Shown here: positions 3,859 through 31,088 of the stretch, one piece after another
How the letters are laid out: every line of letters begins with the position of its first letter
Position numbering within the stretch: position 1 is the stretch's first letter
Made by a program: the position numbers and the translations under genes
Source: a virus
IMG/VR virus record: IMGVR_UViG_3300033997_000568
Coordinates: 1-31,088 of that record
DNA: 31,088 nucleotides
Reading direction: 5' to 3' (one strand)
The notes under the pieces: generated by a model
Told to the model about the DNA's origin: nothing
Database searches by the model: none
The model's input: only the letters and a program-made list of their open reading frames with translations

Positions 3859-4208
3859 CACGCCACCCGCACGGGATGTTCATAGCGAGCCTCGCGCCCG
3901 CTCTGGTCTACCGCCCAGACGTTCAGGATCAGCCAGCTGTTCCGAGGGTGTGCCGTCGTGACGACGATGGATCGTGCCCGGCCGTCGTCAAGCAACGGCT
4001 GCAGCGCTTGCTCGGCGTACTGCTGCGCCAAGCGGCGCACGCGCATCACGTCCCGCTCGCGCTCCAGCTCATGCAGGCGTGACCCTAGCGACGTGTCAGC
4101 CCACCACGTTCCGAGCGGTGTTCTCAGGCGCAAATAAACGGCATTGGCGAGCGTGTTGATACGCTCGCCCGAATAGTCGCCCGTGGCGGGGTTCAGGTGC
4201 GGGTCCAT
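3858..4208 (-). CDS. Baseplate wedge protein, GPW/gp25 family (Mu gp46)
   Basis: This baseplate protein has the family signature LANAVYLRLRTPLGTWWAD followed by SLGSRLHELERERD. The start is uncertain. An ATG at 4253 would give 131 residues, but the ATG at 4208 (MDPHLNPATGDYSG, 116 residues) matches where the family usually begins. Neither ATG has a convincing Shine-Dalgarno sequence. The gap upstream of 4208 is unusual in a tail operon whose other genes overlap or nearly touch. It contains one of three copies of a dyad motif whose centre lies 43.5 bp from the ATG at 4208, so a promoter here may yield a leaderless message. The downstream gene overlaps by TGATG. Confidence 0.92.
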   Translation of the reverse strand: MDPHLNPATGDYSGERINTLANAVYLRLRTPLGTWWADTSLGSRLHELERERDVMRVRRLAQQYAEQALQPLLDDGRARSIVVTTAHPRNSWLILNVWAVDQSGREARYEHPVRVA

Positions 4209-4214
4209 GCGCGC

Positions 4215-4261
4215 ATTGTGAGCATCCCGGACGTGGCGCAGCAGGTGAAGCATTTCAGTAG
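4215..4261 (-). promoter_or_regulatory. Predicted late promoter, site C (before gp46)
   Basis: The plus-strand 16-mer TGAAGCATTTCAGTAG (4246-4261) is a near copy of two other sites at 16253-16268 and 23954-23969. On the minus strand it reads as a dyad, CTGAAATGCTTCA. CACAAT (4220-4215) lies where a -10 hexamer would fall if the dyad is centred at -43.5, as for Mor at Pm of Mu. The predicted start of transcription coincides with the A of the gp46 ATG at 4208. The site lies immediately after the stop codon of the gp45-like gene. Activator binding is inferred. Confidence 0.55.
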
Positions 4262-4262
4262 G

Positions 4263-15096: not shown

Positions 15097-15642
15097 CTAG
15101 CCGCTGAACTTTGCGAAAGCGGCCGGGTCCAGGCCCATCGCGCGGCAGACGGCCAGTTCGTCGTCGGACAGCTGGCCATTGCCAGCGTCAGGCTTGCGGC
15201 CGCCGGTCTGCGTGCCGGACAGCGCCGCGATCGCCGGGGCTTGGTCGAGGTAGGCCTTGAGCTGGGCGGGATCCTTTTTGCCGAGGTCGCGCGCCCAGGT
15301 TTCGAGCGCCGGAATCAGTTTGCCGGCCGACAGGGCGGCCACGACCAGGCCGTCGACCTCACGCTCGCGCGCGGCCGTTGTCAGTGCGGCGACCTGGTCG
15401 TGCAGGCCGGAGAGCGCAGCGACCGGGACAAACTTCGCCGGGTCGGGTTTGCCGCTGCTGTTGGCCTTGAGCGCTACGACTTCCTGTTCCTTCCGCGTGA
15501 CGTCGGCCGTCAGGCTGGCGACCTTGTCCGCGTTTTCCTGCGCGGCGTCGGCGTATTCCTGCAGCTTCGCCAGGGCATCCTCTTCCGATGCGTCCTCGGG
15601 CAGGCCCAGCAGCGCGAGCAGCGCCTTGAGCAGTTCGTTCAT
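15097..15642 (-). CDS. Z: Internal scaffold protein Z, same frame as protease I
   Basis: A separate start inside the protease gene gives a 181-residue protein beginning MNELLKALLALLGLPEDAS. The internal ATG is preceded by AAGGAAAACACT, a good Shine-Dalgarno at proper spacing. The protein is Ala/Glu/Leu-rich and predicted to be alpha-helical with a coiled-coil segment (DALAKLQEYADAAQENADKV). This is the Mu I/Z arrangement, in which scaffold is produced both as the C-terminal part of the protease and as an independent product. Confidence 0.82.
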   Translation of the reverse strand: MNELLKALLALLGLPEDASEEDALAKLQEYADAAQENADKVASLTADVTRKEQEVVALKANSSGKPDPAKFVPVAALSGLHDQVAALTTAAREREVDGLVVAALSAGKLIPALETWARDLGKKDPAQLKAYLDQAPAIAALSGTQTGGRKPDAGNGQLSDDELAVCRAMGLDPAAFAKFSG

Positions 15643-16215
15643 AGTGTTTTCCTTGGGGGATTGGGCGGGAGGGGAAAAAAGCGCCCCGCCATGCGCCATG
15701 CAAGCAGCCGCGCGGCTGGCGGCGGCGAGGCGGACCTCGTCCATGCCATCCAGCGCCGGATCGTTTGTCAGTGCGACGTGGAGCAGGGCGAGGGGATAGC
15801 CCTGCTCGTCGTAGGTGAAGACCGGGGAGATGTAGCGATATTCCTTCGCGGTAATGTGCGTGCGCGCTGCAGCCGTCCAGTCGACGACAGCGAACAAGCC
15901 CTCGCCCTCGCGCCAATCCAGGCTCTTGATCCAGCCCGATGCGATAGCCTTGCGCCCCGTTTTCGCGGTCGTGAGAATCTGGTGGTCGTAGTCCACGGCG
16001 AGGTCGCGGCCGCGCGCTGCCATCCAAGCCTGGAGCCGTTTAGCCGTCGCCGCGTCCATTCGCCATGTGTCGACGTCTTCGGGACGGCCGTCATATGCCC
16101 TGAACTCGCCCGCCGGCAAAACCTGGATCACGGCCAGGCCCGACTCGGGTAGGGCCGGCAGCTCGACCGACAAGACGGCGACACGAGGGGACGGGGAAAG
16201 GATGCGAATAGCCAT
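15097..16215 (-). CDS. I: Prohead protease gpI with C-terminal scaffold region
   Basis: This 372-residue protein combines an N-terminal Mu protease domain (about residues 1-160) with a C-terminal scaffold. Conserved protease stretches are DLAVDYDHQ at about 72-80, IASGWIKSL shortly after, and KEYRYISPVFTYDEQGYPLA. The scaffold is also made separately from an internal start at 15642. The ATG at 16215 has no Shine-Dalgarno sequence upstream. A dyad motif centred 43.5 bp upstream predicts transcription starting at that ATG, so the message may be leaderless. Confidence 0.94.
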   Translation of the reverse strand: MAIRILSPSPRVAVLSVELPALPESGLAVIQVLPAGEFRAYDGRPEDVDTWRMDAATAKRLQAWMAARGRDLAVDYDHQILTTAKTGRKAIASGWIKSLDWREGEGLFAVVDWTAAARTHITAKEYRYISPVFTYDEQGYPLALLHVALTNDPALDGMDEVRLAAASRAAACMAHGGALFSPPAQSPKENTMNELLKALLALLGLPEDASEEDALAKLQEYADAAQENADKVASLTADVTRKEQEVVALKANSSGKPDPAKFVPVAALSGLHDQVAALTTAAREREVDGLVVAALSAGKLIPALETWARDLGKKDPAQLKAYLDQAPAIAALSGTQTGGRKPDAGNGQLSDDELAVCRAMGLDPAAFAKFSG

Positions 16216-16221
16216 GTCGGC

Positions 16222-16268
16222 ATGTTGCCGATGGCTAGGCGTCTAAATCAGTTGAAGGACTTCAGTAG
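16222..16268 (-). promoter_or_regulatory. Predicted late promoter, site B (before protease I)
   Basis: The plus-strand 16-mer TGAAGGACTTCAGTAG (16253-16268) matches the copies at 4246 and 23954 at 14 or more positions. The dyad centre (16258.5) is 43.5 bp from the A of the protease ATG, the same distance as at site C. CAACAT (16227-16222) occupies the expected -10 position and is a weak match. Mu has its late promoter PI in this place, upstream of I. Confidence 0.58.
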
Positions 16269-16488
16269 GTAGGCCGGGGAAATCGCGCTGGCCAGGTCGA
16301 CCAGGCCGGGGAAATTTGGGCGATTTCCGGGCTACCTGGGATTTCGGGACGGCCGTGGGCAATGCCGTGGCCGTTAAAACCGTTTTTAACGCGCCGTTAA
16401 CGGGGGGCAGGGCTGGAATTGGTAGCGATACCGCACCCCACCCCCCAAAAACGCGCCAGCGGGCCGATTTTCAAAAGCCGTCCGCCGG
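16269..16488. other. Structured mid-genome intergenic region, candidate strong gyrase site
   Basis: This is the longest noncoding stretch of the window. It lies between G and I near the centre of the element. It contains a 13-bp direct repeat, AGGCCGGGGAAAT, at 16271-16283 and 16303-16315. Between the copies is an 18-bp near-palindrome with one mismatched pair (16290-16307, centre GGTCGACC). An 8-bp inverted repeat follows (16372-16379 and 16384-16391, arms CGTTAAAA/TTTTAACG), then a 10-bp perfect palindrome CCGTTAACGG (16394-16403). In Mu the strong gyrase site lies between G and I at mid-genome, so this is the positional counterpart. Confidence 0.5.
16271..16315. repeat. 13-bp direct repeat flanking an 18-bp near-palindrome
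   Basis: AGGCCGGGGAAAT occurs at 16271-16283 and again at 16303-16315, 32 bp apart (about three helical turns). The spacer holds GGCCAGGTCGACCAGGCC (16290-16307), palindromic except for one pair. The first copy abuts the late dyad site B. Confidence 0.75.
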
Positions 16489-16995
16489 TCAGGATTTATC
16501 CCCGTTGATCGCCCCGGCCAGGTAGTCGGCCACCAGCCCCTCGACCTCCTGGCCATCAGCCGGCGATATCCCTAGATACGGTCGAGCAGGGATCGTGACG
16601 CTGGTCACAAAGCGACCACGTAGACTGAGTGCGCGGCCCTTCTTCGCTTGGATCTCCCCGCCGAATTGATGGATGGCCGCGTATTCGAGACTGCTGCCCA
16701 CAAGCAACTCGTCCGGGATGACCTGCCAGTGCAGAGTGTTCCGCAGATGACCGCGCAGAGTCAGAATCTTGTCCGCGTTCTGCGGCTTCTCGCGCTGATA
16801 CCAAGCTTGTAGCGGTTGCCAGGGCGTGCCATCCGGTGCCGTCTGCGTCTTGAATCGGTCCTGCGTCGTCCCGACCAGGTACTCCCCGATCCCGCGCAAC
16901 ACGGTCGTCATGTCTTTGGCACGGGCGGCCAGGCGCTCCATCGCATGACGAAACTGGCGGTCGTCGATCTCGACGACGAGCATTGTGCCGGTCAT
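16489..16995 (-). CDS. G: Virion morphogenesis protein gpG (Mu gp31)
   Basis: This 168-residue protein is of the gpG/phage virion morphogenesis family, which in Mu works in tail or head completion. Landmarks are a cluster near residues 45-70 (TTQDRFKTQTAPDGTPWQPL) and EYAAIHQFGGEI near 105-117, followed by IPARPYLGIS. The start chosen (ATG at 16995) is one base from the stop of F. An ATG at 16983 (MLVVEIDD) is also possible. Confidence 0.9.
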   Translation of the reverse strand: MTGTMLVVEIDDRQFRHAMERLAARAKDMTTVLRGIGEYLVGTTQDRFKTQTAPDGTPWQPLQAWYQREKPQNADKILTLRGHLRNTLHWQVIPDELLVGSSLEYAAIHQFGGEIQAKKGRALSLRGRFVTSVTIPARPYLGISPADGQEVEGLVADYLAGAINGDKS

Positions 16996-16996
16996 A

Positions 16997-18241
16997 TCAA
17001 GATCCGTCGGCCCACAGGTAGCCATTGCGCAAGCGGCCCAGCTCGACCTGGTCGGCAATCGGTACCAGGCGCCAGGACTCGAAGAAGCCCGCGCCGACCT
17101 GGGCGACCATGACCTGGTCGCCATCTGCTTGCCGATATCGCTTCACCAGCTGCGTGCGCAATACATAGGCCCCGCTCTTGCGCTCTCTGAACAGGTTCTG
17201 CCAGATCTCGGCCGGCTGCGTAAGCAGGTCTATCAGCAGCCCGAGCAAGCCGGCCGGCTCTGCCTGTCCGACGAGCGTGCGCGCGACGACGGCGGCGCTA
17301 GTGGCCACAGGGATGCCGCCAGGGCGAAATACCTGCAAGGGCGTCTCCAGAGCCTGCGTCGTGCCGACGACGAGCTGGGACAGGGAGGGACCGGCAGGCA
17401 GATGAAGGCCCGCCGGCGACGGCGGGGCGTTAAATGCGCGCAGCACCCCTGAGCGGGCCGCGCTGGCCAGCACTGGTGCCCACATGGAATGTCGCAGGTC
17501 CGGGGCTTGCTGGACCGCCTGCAGCGCCTGGCGAGCGAGCGGGCCATCCCCGAGGCTTGCGCCAGGCGCATATTCAAAACCCGGATCAATGCCGTCCGGG
17601 ATCGTGACGGTGCGCGGCGCGGGGCCGGTTGCGCCGATCGTGATCTCGCGCTCGGGAACGTCCGGGGCCTGGTCCGCCCCAACCTTGCCCATCGCGCGCA
17701 GCTGGCGCTCGGTCAGCGCCCGTATGCTGCACTGGCATCCCCACCCGTTGGGCGGGAAGAACGTATTCCAGAAGGGATCGTCCCAGCGCAAAACCAGGCC
17801 ATCCAGGGCCAAGTGCTCGGGCCTCGGGTGCTTCACGGCGTCCGAATGCACATACATCCAATAGGGATGCGTGTCGGTCATTTCCAGCAGCTGCTGGCGG
17901 CGGCCGGCGGCAAAGCTGGTGAAGAGATTGGTTTCGTAGATCACGCGGCTGCGCCAGTTGCGCGACCCGTTGTAGTCCCAGCCATGCGCCGCGACGATCC
18001 GGTCGAACTCTCGCTGAAACCAGTCCAGGGACTTTCCGTCCGCGATCGCCCGTTCGACGGCGATCTGAATGTCCCGCACCAGGGCTTCGCGCGTCGCGCC
18101 AGCCACAACAAAGGCGTGGTCATGGCCCGAGGTGTACAGCTGCGTCCAAGATTCGGACGGCAGCGCGACCTTCCGCCGGAAGAACGCGATCTGCTCGCGG
18201 AAGGGAATGCGGCCGATGCTGCCGCTCGGCACGTCAGCCAC
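16997..18241 (-). CDS. F: Minor head protein gpF (MuF) with C-terminal PBECR-type toxin-like domain
   Basis: This 414-residue protein has the Mu F head-morphogenesis domain in its first half: RSRVIYETNLFTSFAAGRRQ at about 98-117, then HLALDG and DDPFWNTFFPPNGWGCQCS at about 154-172. A linker of about 160 residues follows. The last about 72 residues (from PAEIW near 343 to GYLWADGS) look like the phage barnase/EndoU/colicin/RelE-like (PBECR) nuclease domains often fused to MuF. Key parts seen are P-EIW, a basic stretch with Arg and Lys (VLRTQLVKRYRQ), SWRLVP and a final LRNGYL. The toxin-domain call rests on pattern recall. MuF proteins sit in the capsid near the portal and could be ejected with DNA. 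Confidence 0.9.
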   Translation of the reverse strand: MADVPSGSIGRIPFREQIAFFRRKVALPSESWTQLYTSGHDHAFVVAGATREALVRDIQIAVERAIADGKSLDWFQREFDRIVAAHGWDYNGSRNWRSRVIYETNLFTSFAAGRRQQLLEMTDTHPYWMYVHSDAVKHPRPEHLALDGLVLRWDDPFWNTFFPPNGWGCQCSIRALTERQLRAMGKVGADQAPDVPEREITIGATGPAPRTVTIPDGIDPGFEYAPGASLGDGPLARQALQAVQQAPDLRHSMWAPVLASAARSGVLRAFNAPPSPAGLHLPAGPSLSQLVVGTTQALETPLQVFRPGGIPVATSAAVVARTLVGQAEPAGLLGLLIDLLTQPAEIWQNLFRERKSGAYVLRTQLVKRYRQADGDQVMVAQVGAGFFESWRLVPIADQVELGRLRNGYLWADGS

Positions 18242-19808
18242 GCGCCTCTCCGATGATGTCCGCGCGGCCAGCCAGGGAGGCGGCGACCAGCGCTTCGCTC
18301 ATGGCGTCTGCGAATTCGTCGAGCGACATATCCGGCGCGAGCGCGAGCAAGCCGTCTCGGATCTCGTCCAGGCTGCTCGCCTGCTCGACCAGGTCGCGGA
18401 TCTTGTTGATCCACGCATCCATCGTCGGCGCGGTATCGTGCGCCAGGCGTGCCGCCTGGCCGGTCGGTGCGGGTATGCCTGCAGGGGCCGAAGGGCGTGC
18501 AGCCAGCGCGGCCTGCGTGCCGGCCTGGCCCGTGGGTTCTGCCGGCAGGGCACCAGCCGGCCCCATCGTCAACACAGCTTGACCTTTCTCCGGCTTCGGG
18601 ATGTTCAGACGCTCATGCGCCCAATCCACGGGGATCGACATACCGACGCGCACAAGCTGGGGCAGCGCGGCGGCGAAGATCTTCATATCTTCCGCATGCC
18701 GCGTGTCGAAACGGAACTCAGGAGAGCGACGCGGATCGGCGCCTGGCACGTTCACGGCGCGCAGATGACCGATGACCTGGCGCGTGATCGTCCCCTCCAG
18801 CTGCCGAGCGTCAGCTGCGAGTAGATCGTGGCGCACGTCGTCATGCACCTTGCCCAGCGCGTTTGTCGACGACTTCCCGTCCGCCTGGCTCGTCAACGTG
18901 CCGCCGAGAATAATCTTGGATTGCGTGCGTTCGCACCAGCCGATCATGAACTCGAAGGGGTCTTGCGATCCCTCGGCCGCGTTCTTGAAGTCGATGTCCA
19001 TGCCATCCGGGATGATGCCGGCGGCGTTGTGTCCGATTCCGACGACGGCTGACAACAGCGTCGCGCGATCCTTATCGGTGGTGCCCGCCGGGTACTTGCC
19101 CAAGCGCAGCGGCAGGCCGTAGATTTCAAGAAACTCGGCCAGGTCGCGCGTCGCGTAGTTCTTGAAGAGATACGGCCAAGCCAATGACCGATGGAGTCCC
19201 GCACGCGCAATGTAGCCCGAGCGAGCTTTGTGTTGATGCACAATCCAGCCCAGCGGCCACAGTTGCTCGCCTTCTGCGGATCCGTTGCGCAAGCGCAGCG
19301 CGTTCCCGTCGTGCATCAAGGTCTGGAACCAGCGCTGCGGCCGGTGCGTCATCTTGCTGGGCAACCTCACCGCGCCGACGCGCTGCCATTCAAGCTCAAT
19401 GCCGACGAACGCATGGCCCACGGCATCCATGCAGTCGAGTAGAAAATCGTCAAACGACGGCAGCTCGCTGAACCACTCACGCATCATCGCGGTTTCCCGT
19501 TGCTCGGCCGGCGTGGCGTTTTTCGGTTCATGGATCTCCCAGGGCAGCGTCAGGATCGCGCGCTTGCGCTTGGACATCTCGGACATGATGTGGCCGTCCT
19601 TCTCTTCCATGTCTGCGAAGAGATCAGCCTGCGCGATCAAGTTGCCCTGTTCGGCATCTTCCATGATGCGCGCCATGCGCTGCGGAGTGATTCCGCGCGA
19701 CGGATGGTCGGCCCATTCTCGGGTAATCCATCCCAGCCGGGATGTCTGCGGTTCGGAGAGAGCGGCGCGCGAAATCGGGCGGCCTCGGGCGTCAAGAATC
19801 TGCGTCAT
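18234..19808 (-). CDS. Portal protein, DUF935 (Mu gp29)
   Basis: This portal-type protein of 524 residues forms the ring through which DNA enters the capsid. Conserved Mu gp29 parts include EEKDGHIMSEMSKRKRAILT near residue 70 (the typical D..l...l..rk.ai pattern), then FVGIELEWQRVG and IYGLPLRLGKYPAGTTDKD near 235-253. The ATG at 19808 was chosen. A TTG at 19820 would add four residues. Neither start has a clear Shine-Dalgarno. The 3' end overlaps the F gene by 8 bp. Confidence 0.94.
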   Translation of the reverse strand: MTQILDARGRPISRAALSEPQTSRLGWITREWADHPSRGITPQRMARIMEDAEQGNLIAQADLFADMEEKDGHIMSEMSKRKRAILTLPWEIHEPKNATPAEQRETAMMREWFSELPSFDDFLLDCMDAVGHAFVGIELEWQRVGAVRLPSKMTHRPQRWFQTLMHDGNALRLRNGSAEGEQLWPLGWIVHQHKARSGYIARAGLHRSLAWPYLFKNYATRDLAEFLEIYGLPLRLGKYPAGTTDKDRATLLSAVVGIGHNAAGIIPDGMDIDFKNAAEGSQDPFEFMIGWCERTQSKIILGGTLTSQADGKSSTNALGKVHDDVRHDLLAADARQLEGTITRQVIGHLRAVNVPGADPRRSPEFRFDTRHAEDMKIFAAALPQLVRVGMSIPVDWAHERLNIPKPEKGQAVLTMGPAGALPAEPTGQAGTQAALAARPSAPAGIPAPTGQAARLAHDTAPTMDAWINKIRDLVEQASSLDEIRDGLLALAPDMSLDEFADAMSEALVAASLAGRADIIGEARG

Positions 19809-23923: not shown

Positions 23924-23969
23924 GTATGTTTTGCGCGAGCGGTGCGCGCGTCCTGAAGGATTTCAGTAG
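23923..23969 (-). promoter_or_regulatory. Predicted late promoter, site A (lysis operon)
   Basis: The plus-strand 16-mer TGAAGGATTTCAGTAG (23954-23969) is a copy of sites B and C. On the minus strand the core is CTGAAATCCTTCAG, a perfect dyad around a 4-bp centre. CATACT (23928-23923) lies at the -10 position expected for a dyad centred at -43.5. The site lies between the Mor-type gene and the lysis genes, corresponding to a middle or lysis promoter in Mu. Confidence 0.6.
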
Positions 23970-23984
23970 ATAGGGGATCGGGGC

Positions 23985-24461
23985 TTAGAACAGCCCGAGC
24001 TGGCCGGCACTGCGCACGGCGTTCTCGGCCGGCTCGACGCGGTCCGGCATCTTGAGGATATTCCAGATGTGCCGATCTGAGTATCCGTGACGCAGTGCCA
24101 GCACCGCGACCGCGCGCGTGGCGGATATCTCGCGCGTGAGCTGGTCGAACGCGGCCCGTATCTTGCGATATTCGAACTCTGCCAGTGCAGCACGACATTG
24201 CGGGACGTACAACGGCTCGCCGCCGAAGTGGCGCACAAGCTCGGCAGCGGCTTCCGCTCCGATCAGCTCGGCAATCGCTTCATACTGAGCTTCGCCCTGG
24301 CGGGTTTCCCGCTTGGACACCGCAATCGTGGTGCCGCCGGCTAGACGGACCAGCTCCATCGTTGCGCGCAACCCGATGACGACGACGAGCGTCTGCACAA
24401 CGGGCGGCAGCAGGCCGGCGACGTCTGCGAAATCATCAGGGTGGGCGACGAGGTTTTGCAT
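23985..24461 (-). CDS. mor: Mor/C-family transcription activator
   Basis: This 158-residue protein belongs to the Mor/C family, which activates middle and late promoters of Mu by binding a dyad upstream of a -10 box. The conserved region begins with RHFGGEPLYVPQCRAALAEF (about 77-96), followed by AFDQLTREISATRAVAVLALRHGYSDRHIW, where the helix-turn-helix lies (about 115-140). It follows GemA exactly as mor does in Mu. It is the only member of the family seen in the window, so it may serve for both Mor and C. Likely targets are the three dyads at 23954, 16253 and 4246. Confidence 0.9.
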   Translation of the reverse strand: MQNLVAHPDDFADVAGLLPPVVQTLVVVIGLRATMELVRLAGGTTIAVSKRETRQGEAQYEAIAELIGAEAAAELVRHFGGEPLYVPQCRAALAEFEYRKIRAAFDQLTREISATRAVAVLALRHGYSDRHIWNILKMPDRVEPAENAVRSAGQLGLF

Positions 24462-28746: not shown

Positions 28747-30882
28747 TCACGCCACGCGGCGAGAAGGGTTGAAATCGTTCAGCTGCTGTTGATCGTTGTC
28801 CGTCCAACCGAAGCCCAGCAGCTCATGGCGTTGGGCGAAGAGCGCATAGCCGTCCGGGTCTAGGACGTAGTCGCGCAGGAAGTCGCGGTCGGACTCTTTC
28901 CATTCCTGTTTGTGTTCCATGAGCCACTCGTAGCGCGCGGCCGGCGTCGTGAAGAGCGGGCGCACAGGCGCTGCGGGTGCGGTGGACTGCGCAATCGGCT
29001 GTTCCGGTTGCGCAGGCGTCGTGATGCTCTCGACGTCGTGGACCTGCAGGAAGCTTGCAGCCGGTGACGGCGCGTTTTCGATGACGAGCGGGCCGTCTTG
29101 CAGTGATTCGTTGACGGCGTCGACCTTCGCCTGCAGGCGGCGTAGCTGGCCTTCGGCGCGCTTGCGGTTGGCCTGCTCCAGAACACTCTCGGGGAAGAAA
29201 TCCCGCTTGTTGCCATCGAGCTGCGCCTTGCAGATCAGCACCCCGTCTGCGTCGTACACCCAGACCATGCTCGGATCGTGGATGTCGTAGCCGACATTGA
29301 CGCCGTCGCCGTGGTATTCCGTCAGCTCGTGCGAAAAATAGATGTTGCTGAAGAGACGAATCTCGCCGCGCAGCACGCGGCACGGCTGCTGCGGGCGGAA
29401 CAGGTTGTCGGCCTCTTCTGGCTGCAGCATGATCAGCTGCGCGCCGTCGTCCAGACCCTTCTCCCATGCTTCGTCCGGTGTCATGTGTCGGCGTTTTCCC
29501 GTCGCCGGGTCCGAGATCATCGGTAAGCCGCGTTGCGGGCGGCTGTTGTAGCGGTCGACCTGCTCGGCGGCAAAGCGTACGAATTCGGGCCAAGGCAACA
29601 GCGCGCGGCTCGCGCCAAACGTTTTGATATCGCGTCGCGTCAGCTTGTGGATCTTGTTCTTTGCTTCGGGATCCATCGGTGCGCCGATGTAGGTCGGCAT
29701 TTCCTTAGCCGCGCGAACCCATACGGATTGATGCAGGCGTTCAATGACGCCACGCGCTTGCGAGTTGTACGGCAGGGAATGCTCCAGAGATGTTCCCAGC
29801 CTGCTAAGTAGACCGGTCCCTGGCGCGCTGATCAGTGCATTGCGATAGCCGGGGCCACGGTCGACATAGAAGATCGACGGGATGCAGCCGCGCATCGTTG
29901 CGACGCGCAGCGCATCAAGCACTGCAAGACCGGACTCGGCCAGATCGACGGACCAACCGACGATACGTCGGGTTGCGGCGTCAACTACGGATGTGATCTC
30001 GGGGCGGAACGGTCGGCCGTGGCGCGGGTGTGCGACTTCGGCGTCGAACGCATGGCCGTCAGCCATGAACACCTCGCCTGGCCAGAGCATCGACTTGTCT
30101 CGGCGGACAAAGGGCTTCAGGTTTTTCAGCTCGCGCGGCCCCATGCGGCCCGCCTGCAGGGCGACATTGCCCATGCTTGCCAGGAAGCGGCGCAGCGTGT
30201 CGTAGCTGGGTGGTGTGACGCCGGCAGGCAAGTGCTTGGGCAGTTCTTCTTCGACCCAGCGAATCGACGGCTTCTGCGGGCGCTGGTACAGACGCAGCGC
30301 GGCATCTGCCCAGGGCGACGCCGTCTCGCGCAGCCAATTGGCGCGTTTCGTCGCACCTGTGTTGCGCGGTGCAAGCTGGTCTACGGCGTTCGGCTGGTTG
30401 AGGTCGAACTTTGCGAGCCAGCGGTAAAGCGTGGCCCGTGTAAGCGTGCGCGACGTGCCGGCACGATGGTTTGCAACGGGCAGCAAAATAGCAAGGTCCG
30501 GCGGCAAGGTTCCCGCTTGGGCTTCGGCAACCACGCTTCTAATGGCCCGGTCCATGCCAACCTCCCGCGCGGATCTGTAGACGCGTATGAGGATTGCGGC
30601 GCGCGCCTCTGCAACTTGACGTTGGACTGAACTCAGTTCGTACGCTTGTGCGGCGGGGGCCGGCTGGCTTTGCGGGGCGGCTACTTGCGTTGTCTGGATC
30701 GCGGCTAGGACATATAGGGGCGGAACATAGAGACGCATGACGCCGCTCGCGCCGCCAGTCGCCTGCTCTTCACGAAAGCTCCAGCCTTCGCTAAGTGCAC
30801 GTCTCGTGACACCACGCTCAGTTTTCGGCAAAGAGGGGAGCGCCATCTTCGCAATCTCGGATGCAGAGAACGATTGGGTCAT
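28747..30882 (-). CDS. A: DDE transposase, MuA-like
   Basis: This 711-residue protein is the transposase that integrates and replicates the phage by transposition. The N-terminal part (about 1-55) resembles the winged HTH that binds the enhancer, and residues about 85-240 correspond to the end-binding domains. The catalytic DDE triad is D275 (VFMADGHAFD), D341 (IFYVDRGPGY) and E381 (ARGVIERLH). The C-terminal region after about 590 is where MuB contact would lie. The start chosen (MTQSFSASEI) overlaps the ner stop by ATGA and has AGGAG at good spacing. Confidence 0.96.
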   Translation of the reverse strand: MTQSFSASEIAKMALPSLPKTERGVTRRALSEGWSFREEQATGGASGVMRLYVPPLYVLAAIQTTQVAAPQSQPAPAAQAYELSSVQRQVAEARAAILIRVYRSAREVGMDRAIRSVVAEAQAGTLPPDLAILLPVANHRAGTSRTLTRATLYRWLAKFDLNQPNAVDQLAPRNTGATKRANWLRETASPWADAALRLYQRPQKPSIRWVEEELPKHLPAGVTPPSYDTLRRFLASMGNVALQAGRMGPRELKNLKPFVRRDKSMLWPGEVFMADGHAFDAEVAHPRHGRPFRPEITSVVDAATRRIVGWSVDLAESGLAVLDALRVATMRGCIPSIFYVDRGPGYRNALISAPGTGLLSRLGTSLEHSLPYNSQARGVIERLHQSVWVRAAKEMPTYIGAPMDPEAKNKIHKLTRRDIKTFGASRALLPWPEFVRFAAEQVDRYNSRPQRGLPMISDPATGKRRHMTPDEAWEKGLDDGAQLIMLQPEEADNLFRPQQPCRVLRGEIRLFSNIYFSHELTEYHGDGVNVGYDIHDPSMVWVYDADGVLICKAQLDGNKRDFFPESVLEQANRKRAEGQLRRLQAKVDAVNESLQDGPLVIENAPSPAASFLQVHDVESITTPAQPEQPIAQSTAPAAPVRPLFTTPAARYEWLMEHKQEWKESDRDFLRDYVLDPDGYALFAQRHELLGFGWTDNDQQQLNDFNPSRRVA

Positions 30883-31088
30883 TGCAGCCGCTCCTGATAC
30901 ATGCCGGGCCAAAGATCGGATAGCGGGATCGCCACTAGCTGCGCAATGCGCGATGCGATGCGGCGAGACTTGCCACGCCCATGGATGATGTGAGAAACGG
31001 CCATGCGCGACACGCGCAACTCAGCCGCAATCGCGGCCTGGGAGTGGCCCGCCTTTTTGATCGCCGCCTGGATATCCGCTGGGTGCAT
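30879..31088 (-). CDS. ner: Ner/Nlp-family DNA-binding regulator
   Basis: This 69-residue protein is a lambda-repressor-like HTH of the Ner/Nlp type. The HTH is SQAAIAAELRVSRMAVSHII at residues 16-35, followed by the conserved RGKSRRIASRIAQLVAIPL and LWP. Mu Ner (about 75 residues) turns down the early and repressor promoters after infection. It is the first gene of the early operon, directly before A. Its start codon is the last triplet of the window, so its promoter is not included. Confidence 0.93.
   Translation of the reverse strand: MHPADIQAAIKKAGHSQAAIAAELRVSRMAVSHIIHGRGKSRRIASRIAQLVAIPLSDLWPGMYQERLQ

Follow-up and report, generated by a model that had tools for sequence, protein, structure and literature searches.

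A candidate Mu-type strong gyrase site with a phased TTAA array beside a late promoter in the G-I gap of a Mu-like phage

Introduction

The strong gyrase site (SGS) of phage Mu has been characterized in considerable detail. Its right arm was reported to be essential and to contain bend-inducing repeats (PMC10052514), and cryo-EM of an SGS fragment placed the scissile step at T/GATTT (PMC11626157), which fits the gyrase cut annotated in the Mu GenBank record at 17879/17880 of 36717, 20 nt after gene G. The gyrase motif of Escherichia coli likewise comprises flanking arms, in which GC content is periodic at 10.75 bp (PMC6379681). Strong gyrase sites of Mu-like prophages were the subject of earlier work (Oram and Pato 2004, as cited in PMC10052514), and the phased feature discussed below may already have been described in other Mu-like prophages. 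For phage Ab30, a candidate SGS was published at positions 18736-18772 (PMC5977238). Late transcription in Mu depends on the activator C at four promoters, those of lys, I, P and mom (PMC4461284), and the middle activator Mor acts at Pm through a dyad centred at -43.5 relative to +1 (PMC4390567).

Here, we describe the interval between genes G and I in a 31,088-bp viral contig from a Mu-like phage (hereafter, the window). A sequence-only reading had proposed this interval as a candidate strong gyrase site; its argument was position alone, and it missed two features that lie far beyond chance, namely a phased TTAA array and the dyad of a late promoter. The G-I strong gyrase site is an already known kind of element, and the useful part of the present analysis is a general sequence signature.

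Gene order and the G-I gap

The genes of the window lie on the minus strand. From the right edge, their order is repressor, transposase A, B, GemA, a Mor-family activator, lysozyme (identified by Pfam), terminase, portal, F and G; downstream of G follow the gap, I and the major head, tail sheath, baseplate and tail fibre genes, with a methyltransferase gene at the left edge. Because the repressor gene and the adjoining transposase A lie at one edge and the DNA methyltransferase gene at the other, the window is nearly a whole phage, with the gap near its middle (centre at 16352 of 31088). In this transposable phage, the gap occupies the central G-I position that characterizes a Mu-type strong gyrase site.

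Most of what had been said of the position of the gap was borne out. Its bounds are exact, being set by the G stop at 16489 and the I start at 16215, both on the minus strand, and protein family matches confirmed the two neighbours as G and I (Table 1). It is also by far the longest stretch free of minus-strand ORFs of at least 60 aa, the runner-up measuring 139 nt, and its mid-window placement holds. The further claim, that the gap is unusually rich in symmetric sequence, fared less well: inverted-repeat seeds are slightly raised but barely above chance, a fraction of 0.035-0.14 of other windows or Markov simulations being equally rich or richer. With so marginal an excess, inverted-repeat richness was dropped as the signal of the gap. 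Scans with sigma-70 and terminator consensus sequences found nothing.

Table 1. Features of the G-I gap and related loci in the window
Feature	Coordinates	Strand	Evidence or remark
Transposase A	28747-30912	-	phrog_310
Mor-family transcription activator	23985-24461	-	PF08765, 44.4 bits
Sister dyad before lysozyme gene (P_lys-like)	23954-23970	-	-10-like CATACT at 23923-23928
Gene G homologue	16489-17124	-	phrog_26
G-I intergenic gap, 273 nt, proposed composite regulatory/topological region	16216-16488	-	no minus-strand ORF of at least 60 aa
Terminator-like stem after G, weak in window	16445-16478	-	fold z 1.14
Block GGGGTGCGGTATCGCTACCAATTCC between G and array	16415-16439	-	near-identical in nearest relatives L016-L018
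Helically phased A/T (TTAA) array, proposed wrapped arm of strong gyrase site	16370-16405	-	spacing, periodicity, conservation
TTAA sites of array	16397-16400, 16386-16389, 16374-16377	-	spacing 11 and 12 bp
Putative late-activator (Mor-type) dyad CCTACTGAAGTCCTTCA of P_I	16253-16269	-	three window copies, constant 25-nt spacing
-10-like hexamer CAACAT of P_I	16222-16227	-	25 nt from dyad
Gene I homologue (head maturation protease)	15097-16215	-	phrog_328
Sister dyad before baseplate gene	4246-4262	-	-10-like CACAAT at 4215-4220, ATG at 4208

A late promoter before gene I

The I-proximal end of the gap carries the dyad CCTACTGAAGTCCTTCA. When up to one mismatch was allowed, only two more matches were found in the window, before the lysozyme and baseplate genes, and the core of the dyad did not occur in any of 100 simulated windows. 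Each of the three copies is followed, at the same 25-nt distance, by a -10-like hexamer (Table 1). In two cases, I (16215) and 4208, the distance from the dyad centre to the ATG is 43.5 bp, which places the start codon at the predicted +1 and suggests leaderless late transcripts; at the latter locus, the longest ORF matches the baseplate wedge family (phrog_180) from residue 15 onwards. The -10 hexamer of P_I is six nucleotides from the ATG of I, with no Shine-Dalgarno sequence in view, and the I transcript is accordingly predicted to be leaderless, with its +1 at this ATG. Taken together, a dyad about 43.5 bp before an inferred +1, at a fixed distance from the -10 and repeated at late operons, was found at three sites. 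The closest transposase-bearing relative has three counterparts of the dyad: those of I and the baseplate gene, and one in the place where lysozyme is expected.

The window also encodes a suitable regulator, a protein of the Mor/C family, which we propose as the activator of all three promoters. The dyad position of -43.5 is as for Mor at Mu Pm, and the promoter set, like that of Mu, precedes lys, I and a tail gene, thus resembling three of the four C-dependent late promoters of Mu. The dyad sequence and the predicted leaderless start at I differ from the C and Mor promoters and, unlike in Mu, one Mor-family gene was found and no separate C was seen. The earlier proposal that the gap is a candidate strong gyrase site keeps the mid-genome position in its favour, and a phased signature as in Mu can be added to it. 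The segment next to I (about 16215-16269), which that proposal did not set apart, is more readily accounted for by the late promoter P_I; this promoter would be activated by the Mor-family protein of the phage.

The phased TTAA array

Closer to G, the sense (minus) strand reads CCCCGTTAACGGCGCGTTAAAAACGGTTTTAACGGC (16405-16370), an array of A/T (TTAA) tracts set one helical turn apart in GC-rich surroundings. The window contains ten TTAA sites, three of which fall within the array, and no three-site chain of such spacing arose in 150 simulated windows. When A/T amplitude at period 10.5-11 bp was measured across 36 bp, the array ranked first in the window, providing what an SGS arm calls for, namely A/T phased at about 10.5-10.75 bp. 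A leave-one-out weight matrix assigned it 24.4 bits, as against 10.8 elsewhere.

Since TTAA pairs with TTAA, the tracts could instead form a conserved RNA hairpin, and in the window CGTTAAAA-ACGG-TTTTAACG does constitute an 8-bp inverted repeat. This explanation is nevertheless very improbable: the 8-bp repeat is not retained in all of the nearest relatives, whereas the spacing of 10-11 bp and its multiples (21-22, 31) are, and stems of four A-U pairs are weak.

Two further segments lie between G and the array. The block GGGGTGCGGTATCGCTACCAATTCC is a possible cleavage core. The more G-proximal stem stretch of the window itself folds no better than shuffles, and strong hairpins occupy its place after G in L018, L006, L085 and L062. 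Two attempts to position a cut were abandoned. A simple A/T-phase template suggested TTCC (16415-16418), but this template fails on Mu, where it ranks the true cut only about 113th. The sequence GAAAATCGGCC, just after G, was considered as the counterpart of the AAAATC^AGCC cut of Mu and dropped as unproven, because relatives form a terminator-like stem there and the array would then be far away. As the template ranks the Mu cut low and the weight matrix also prefers other sites in Mu, whose SGS is not its best hit, an array is insufficient by itself to define an SGS.

Conservation in relatives

Relatives were identified in viral contigs and bacterial genomes by means of their G and I proteins, yielding 164 loci with G and I in order, most commonly separated by 200-400 nt; a gap of similar size is retained in most of them. 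Hosts of the loci from bacterial genomes include Burkholderia, Chromobacterium, Serratia, Morganella and Ralstonia. Across 124 non-redundant loci, TTAA is 3.5 times as dense in the gap as elsewhere, the density of TTAA chains with helical spacing is raised 20-34 times, and distances between TTAA pairs peak at 11, 10, 21-22 and 31. The leave-one-out matrix placed its locus-wide best hit in the gap at 77 of these 124 loci, with four expected. With the motif relaxed to T[AG]A[AC], 66 of 76 ordinary non-redundant gaps had two copies spaced by 10-12 bp in the zone 55-145 nt from the G stop, compared with 4.9% of control zones. Among the gaps listed, those bearing an array range from 28 to 61% GC. 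The homologous array lies at 0.49 of the record in the closest transposase-bearing relative and at 0.47-0.52 in three others, a mid-genome position in complete relatives.

The distance from the array to the G stop is tightly held (median 88 nt, interquartile range 82-95), and that to I is looser. This difference bears on a reading in which the whole gap serves transcription control only, with a terminator after G, P_I before I and the array as part of the terminator or as an UP-like element. A/T tracts can act as UP elements, P_I is well supported, and several relatives have terminator-like hairpins after G. Even so, we consider this reading unlikely. With about 155-190 nt between it and the predicted +1, the array lies beyond the reach of an UP element, and that role was rejected on distance; its spacing is constant relative to G rather than I, and inserted genes can separate it from I. 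Moreover, the hairpin downstream of G is distinct from the array and closer to G, and the array is absent from integrase phages in which G and I adjoin (L067, L068).

In eight loci (L103, L115, L124, L131, L144, L172, L185 and L236), the G-I interval extends to 0.5-2 kb while the array stays about 76-85 nt downstream of G, and the genes inserted between array and I have the appearance of a cargo locus. Secondary phased-TTAA hits were also seen near both record ends in two cases, near 980 and 36731 in G052 and near 1241 and 33925 in G013; these are possibly end or enhancer elements.

Association with transposition

A PF09299 transposase was detected in 28 of 31 array-bearing non-redundant viral records of at least 25 kb. 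As for the other three, L031 has a phrog_310 transposase, L211 has neither family, and L256 lacks PF09299, the only family searched for in it; the records of L211 and L256 are both shorter than 30 kb and may be incomplete. The integrase phages L067 and L068, in which no array was found, belong to a small set of non-transposable comparison phages. One cluster, that around L026, consists of phages shown to be transposable by phrog_310, but their gaps hold no array, and no strong array was found anywhere in three complete members. The correlation between array and transposase is therefore supportive rather than clean, and transposase presence was rejected as a clean discriminator, all the more so as PF09299 alone misses divergent transposases.

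The array-less transposable cluster of L264-L281 (records G057-G066) has short G-I gaps; its gyrase site, if any, would be of another form. Phage KS10, with a rearranged order that puts mor rather than G before I, was set aside as a confirmation of the signature, as the interval before I contains no TTAA array.

Discussion

The gap is probably an SGS-type gyrase-wrapping site adjoining P_I, arranged as in Mu. The array is read as an SGS arm because its place and form match those of Mu, without recourse to sequence alignment. In Mu, the TTAA tracts lie to the right of the cut, at gap positions 36, 57 and 69, and correspond to the right arm, such that the phased array overlaps the mapped strong gyrase site. 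As a candidate, the Mu-type strong gyrase site of the window is well supported, and the composite gap around it also holds a late promoter; we infer gyrase binding, cleavage and a role in end synapsis for its phage. In mechanistic terms, phased TTAA tracts in GC-rich DNA would favour bending in one direction, and a bend of this kind would promote wrapping on the GyrA C-terminal domain. Gyrase loaded mid-genome would then supercoil both halves of the prophage and bring its ends together, allowing the transpososome to assemble and replicative transposition to proceed.

Several proteins are drawn to phased A/T tracts, which bend DNA, and the array might consequently bind a nucleoid protein (of the IHF, HU or H-NS type) or a phage protein, creating a bend or domain boundary without gyrase. 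High-scoring TTAA arrays also occur close to the ends of some complete phages. We regard such an arrangement as improbable, given that the same place in Mu is a biochemically mapped gyrase site (PMC10052514) and that the array agrees with the gyrase motif in period and arm length (PMC6379681).

Beyond the window, a phased TTAA array about 88 nt after G may, on balance, be a general signature of the central SGS in a large share of the Mu-like phages of many proteobacterial hosts. Such an array can be read from sequence at a fixed place, making the proposal directly testable in many phages, and would explain why a gap is kept mid-phage despite poorly conserved letters.

The proposal also touches on the anti-CRISPR phages of Pseudomonas. 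In Ab30 (L095, locus 1739-2776), DMS3 (L097) and D3112 (L098), the space between G and a retained GTTAACCCCGTTAGAACCCCGTTAGAA-type array is occupied by accessory genes, which carry an anti-CRISPR annotation in DMS3 and D3112; in other phages, the inserted genes are instead between array and I. The published Ab30 candidate is at the G end of the interval, in the acr leader with its inverted repeats, and the array is found at about 19628-19660, some 0.9 kb beyond; the corresponding array lies near 18.89 kb in DMS3 and near 19.65 kb in D3112. The anti-CRISPR insertion locus would then adjoin a retained gyrase-site candidate. If the proposal is true, D3112-type phages kept their gyrase site when anti-CRISPR genes entered beside it, and the published Ab30 candidate marks the acr leader rather than the array.

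Comparison with known systems

The candidate SGS interval of Ab30 and the G-I intervals of D3112 and DMS3 share with the window their location and a phased array before I, and differ in that anti-CRISPR genes separate G from the array. Relative to the Mu SGS, the array of the window is more regular and set in GC-rich DNA, its letters cannot be confidently aligned, and G is 88 nt from the TTAA pair, as opposed to 56 nt in Mu. In both phages, however, helically spaced A/T (TTAA) tracts lie between G and I at mid-genome, in a gap that also contains the late promoter for I.
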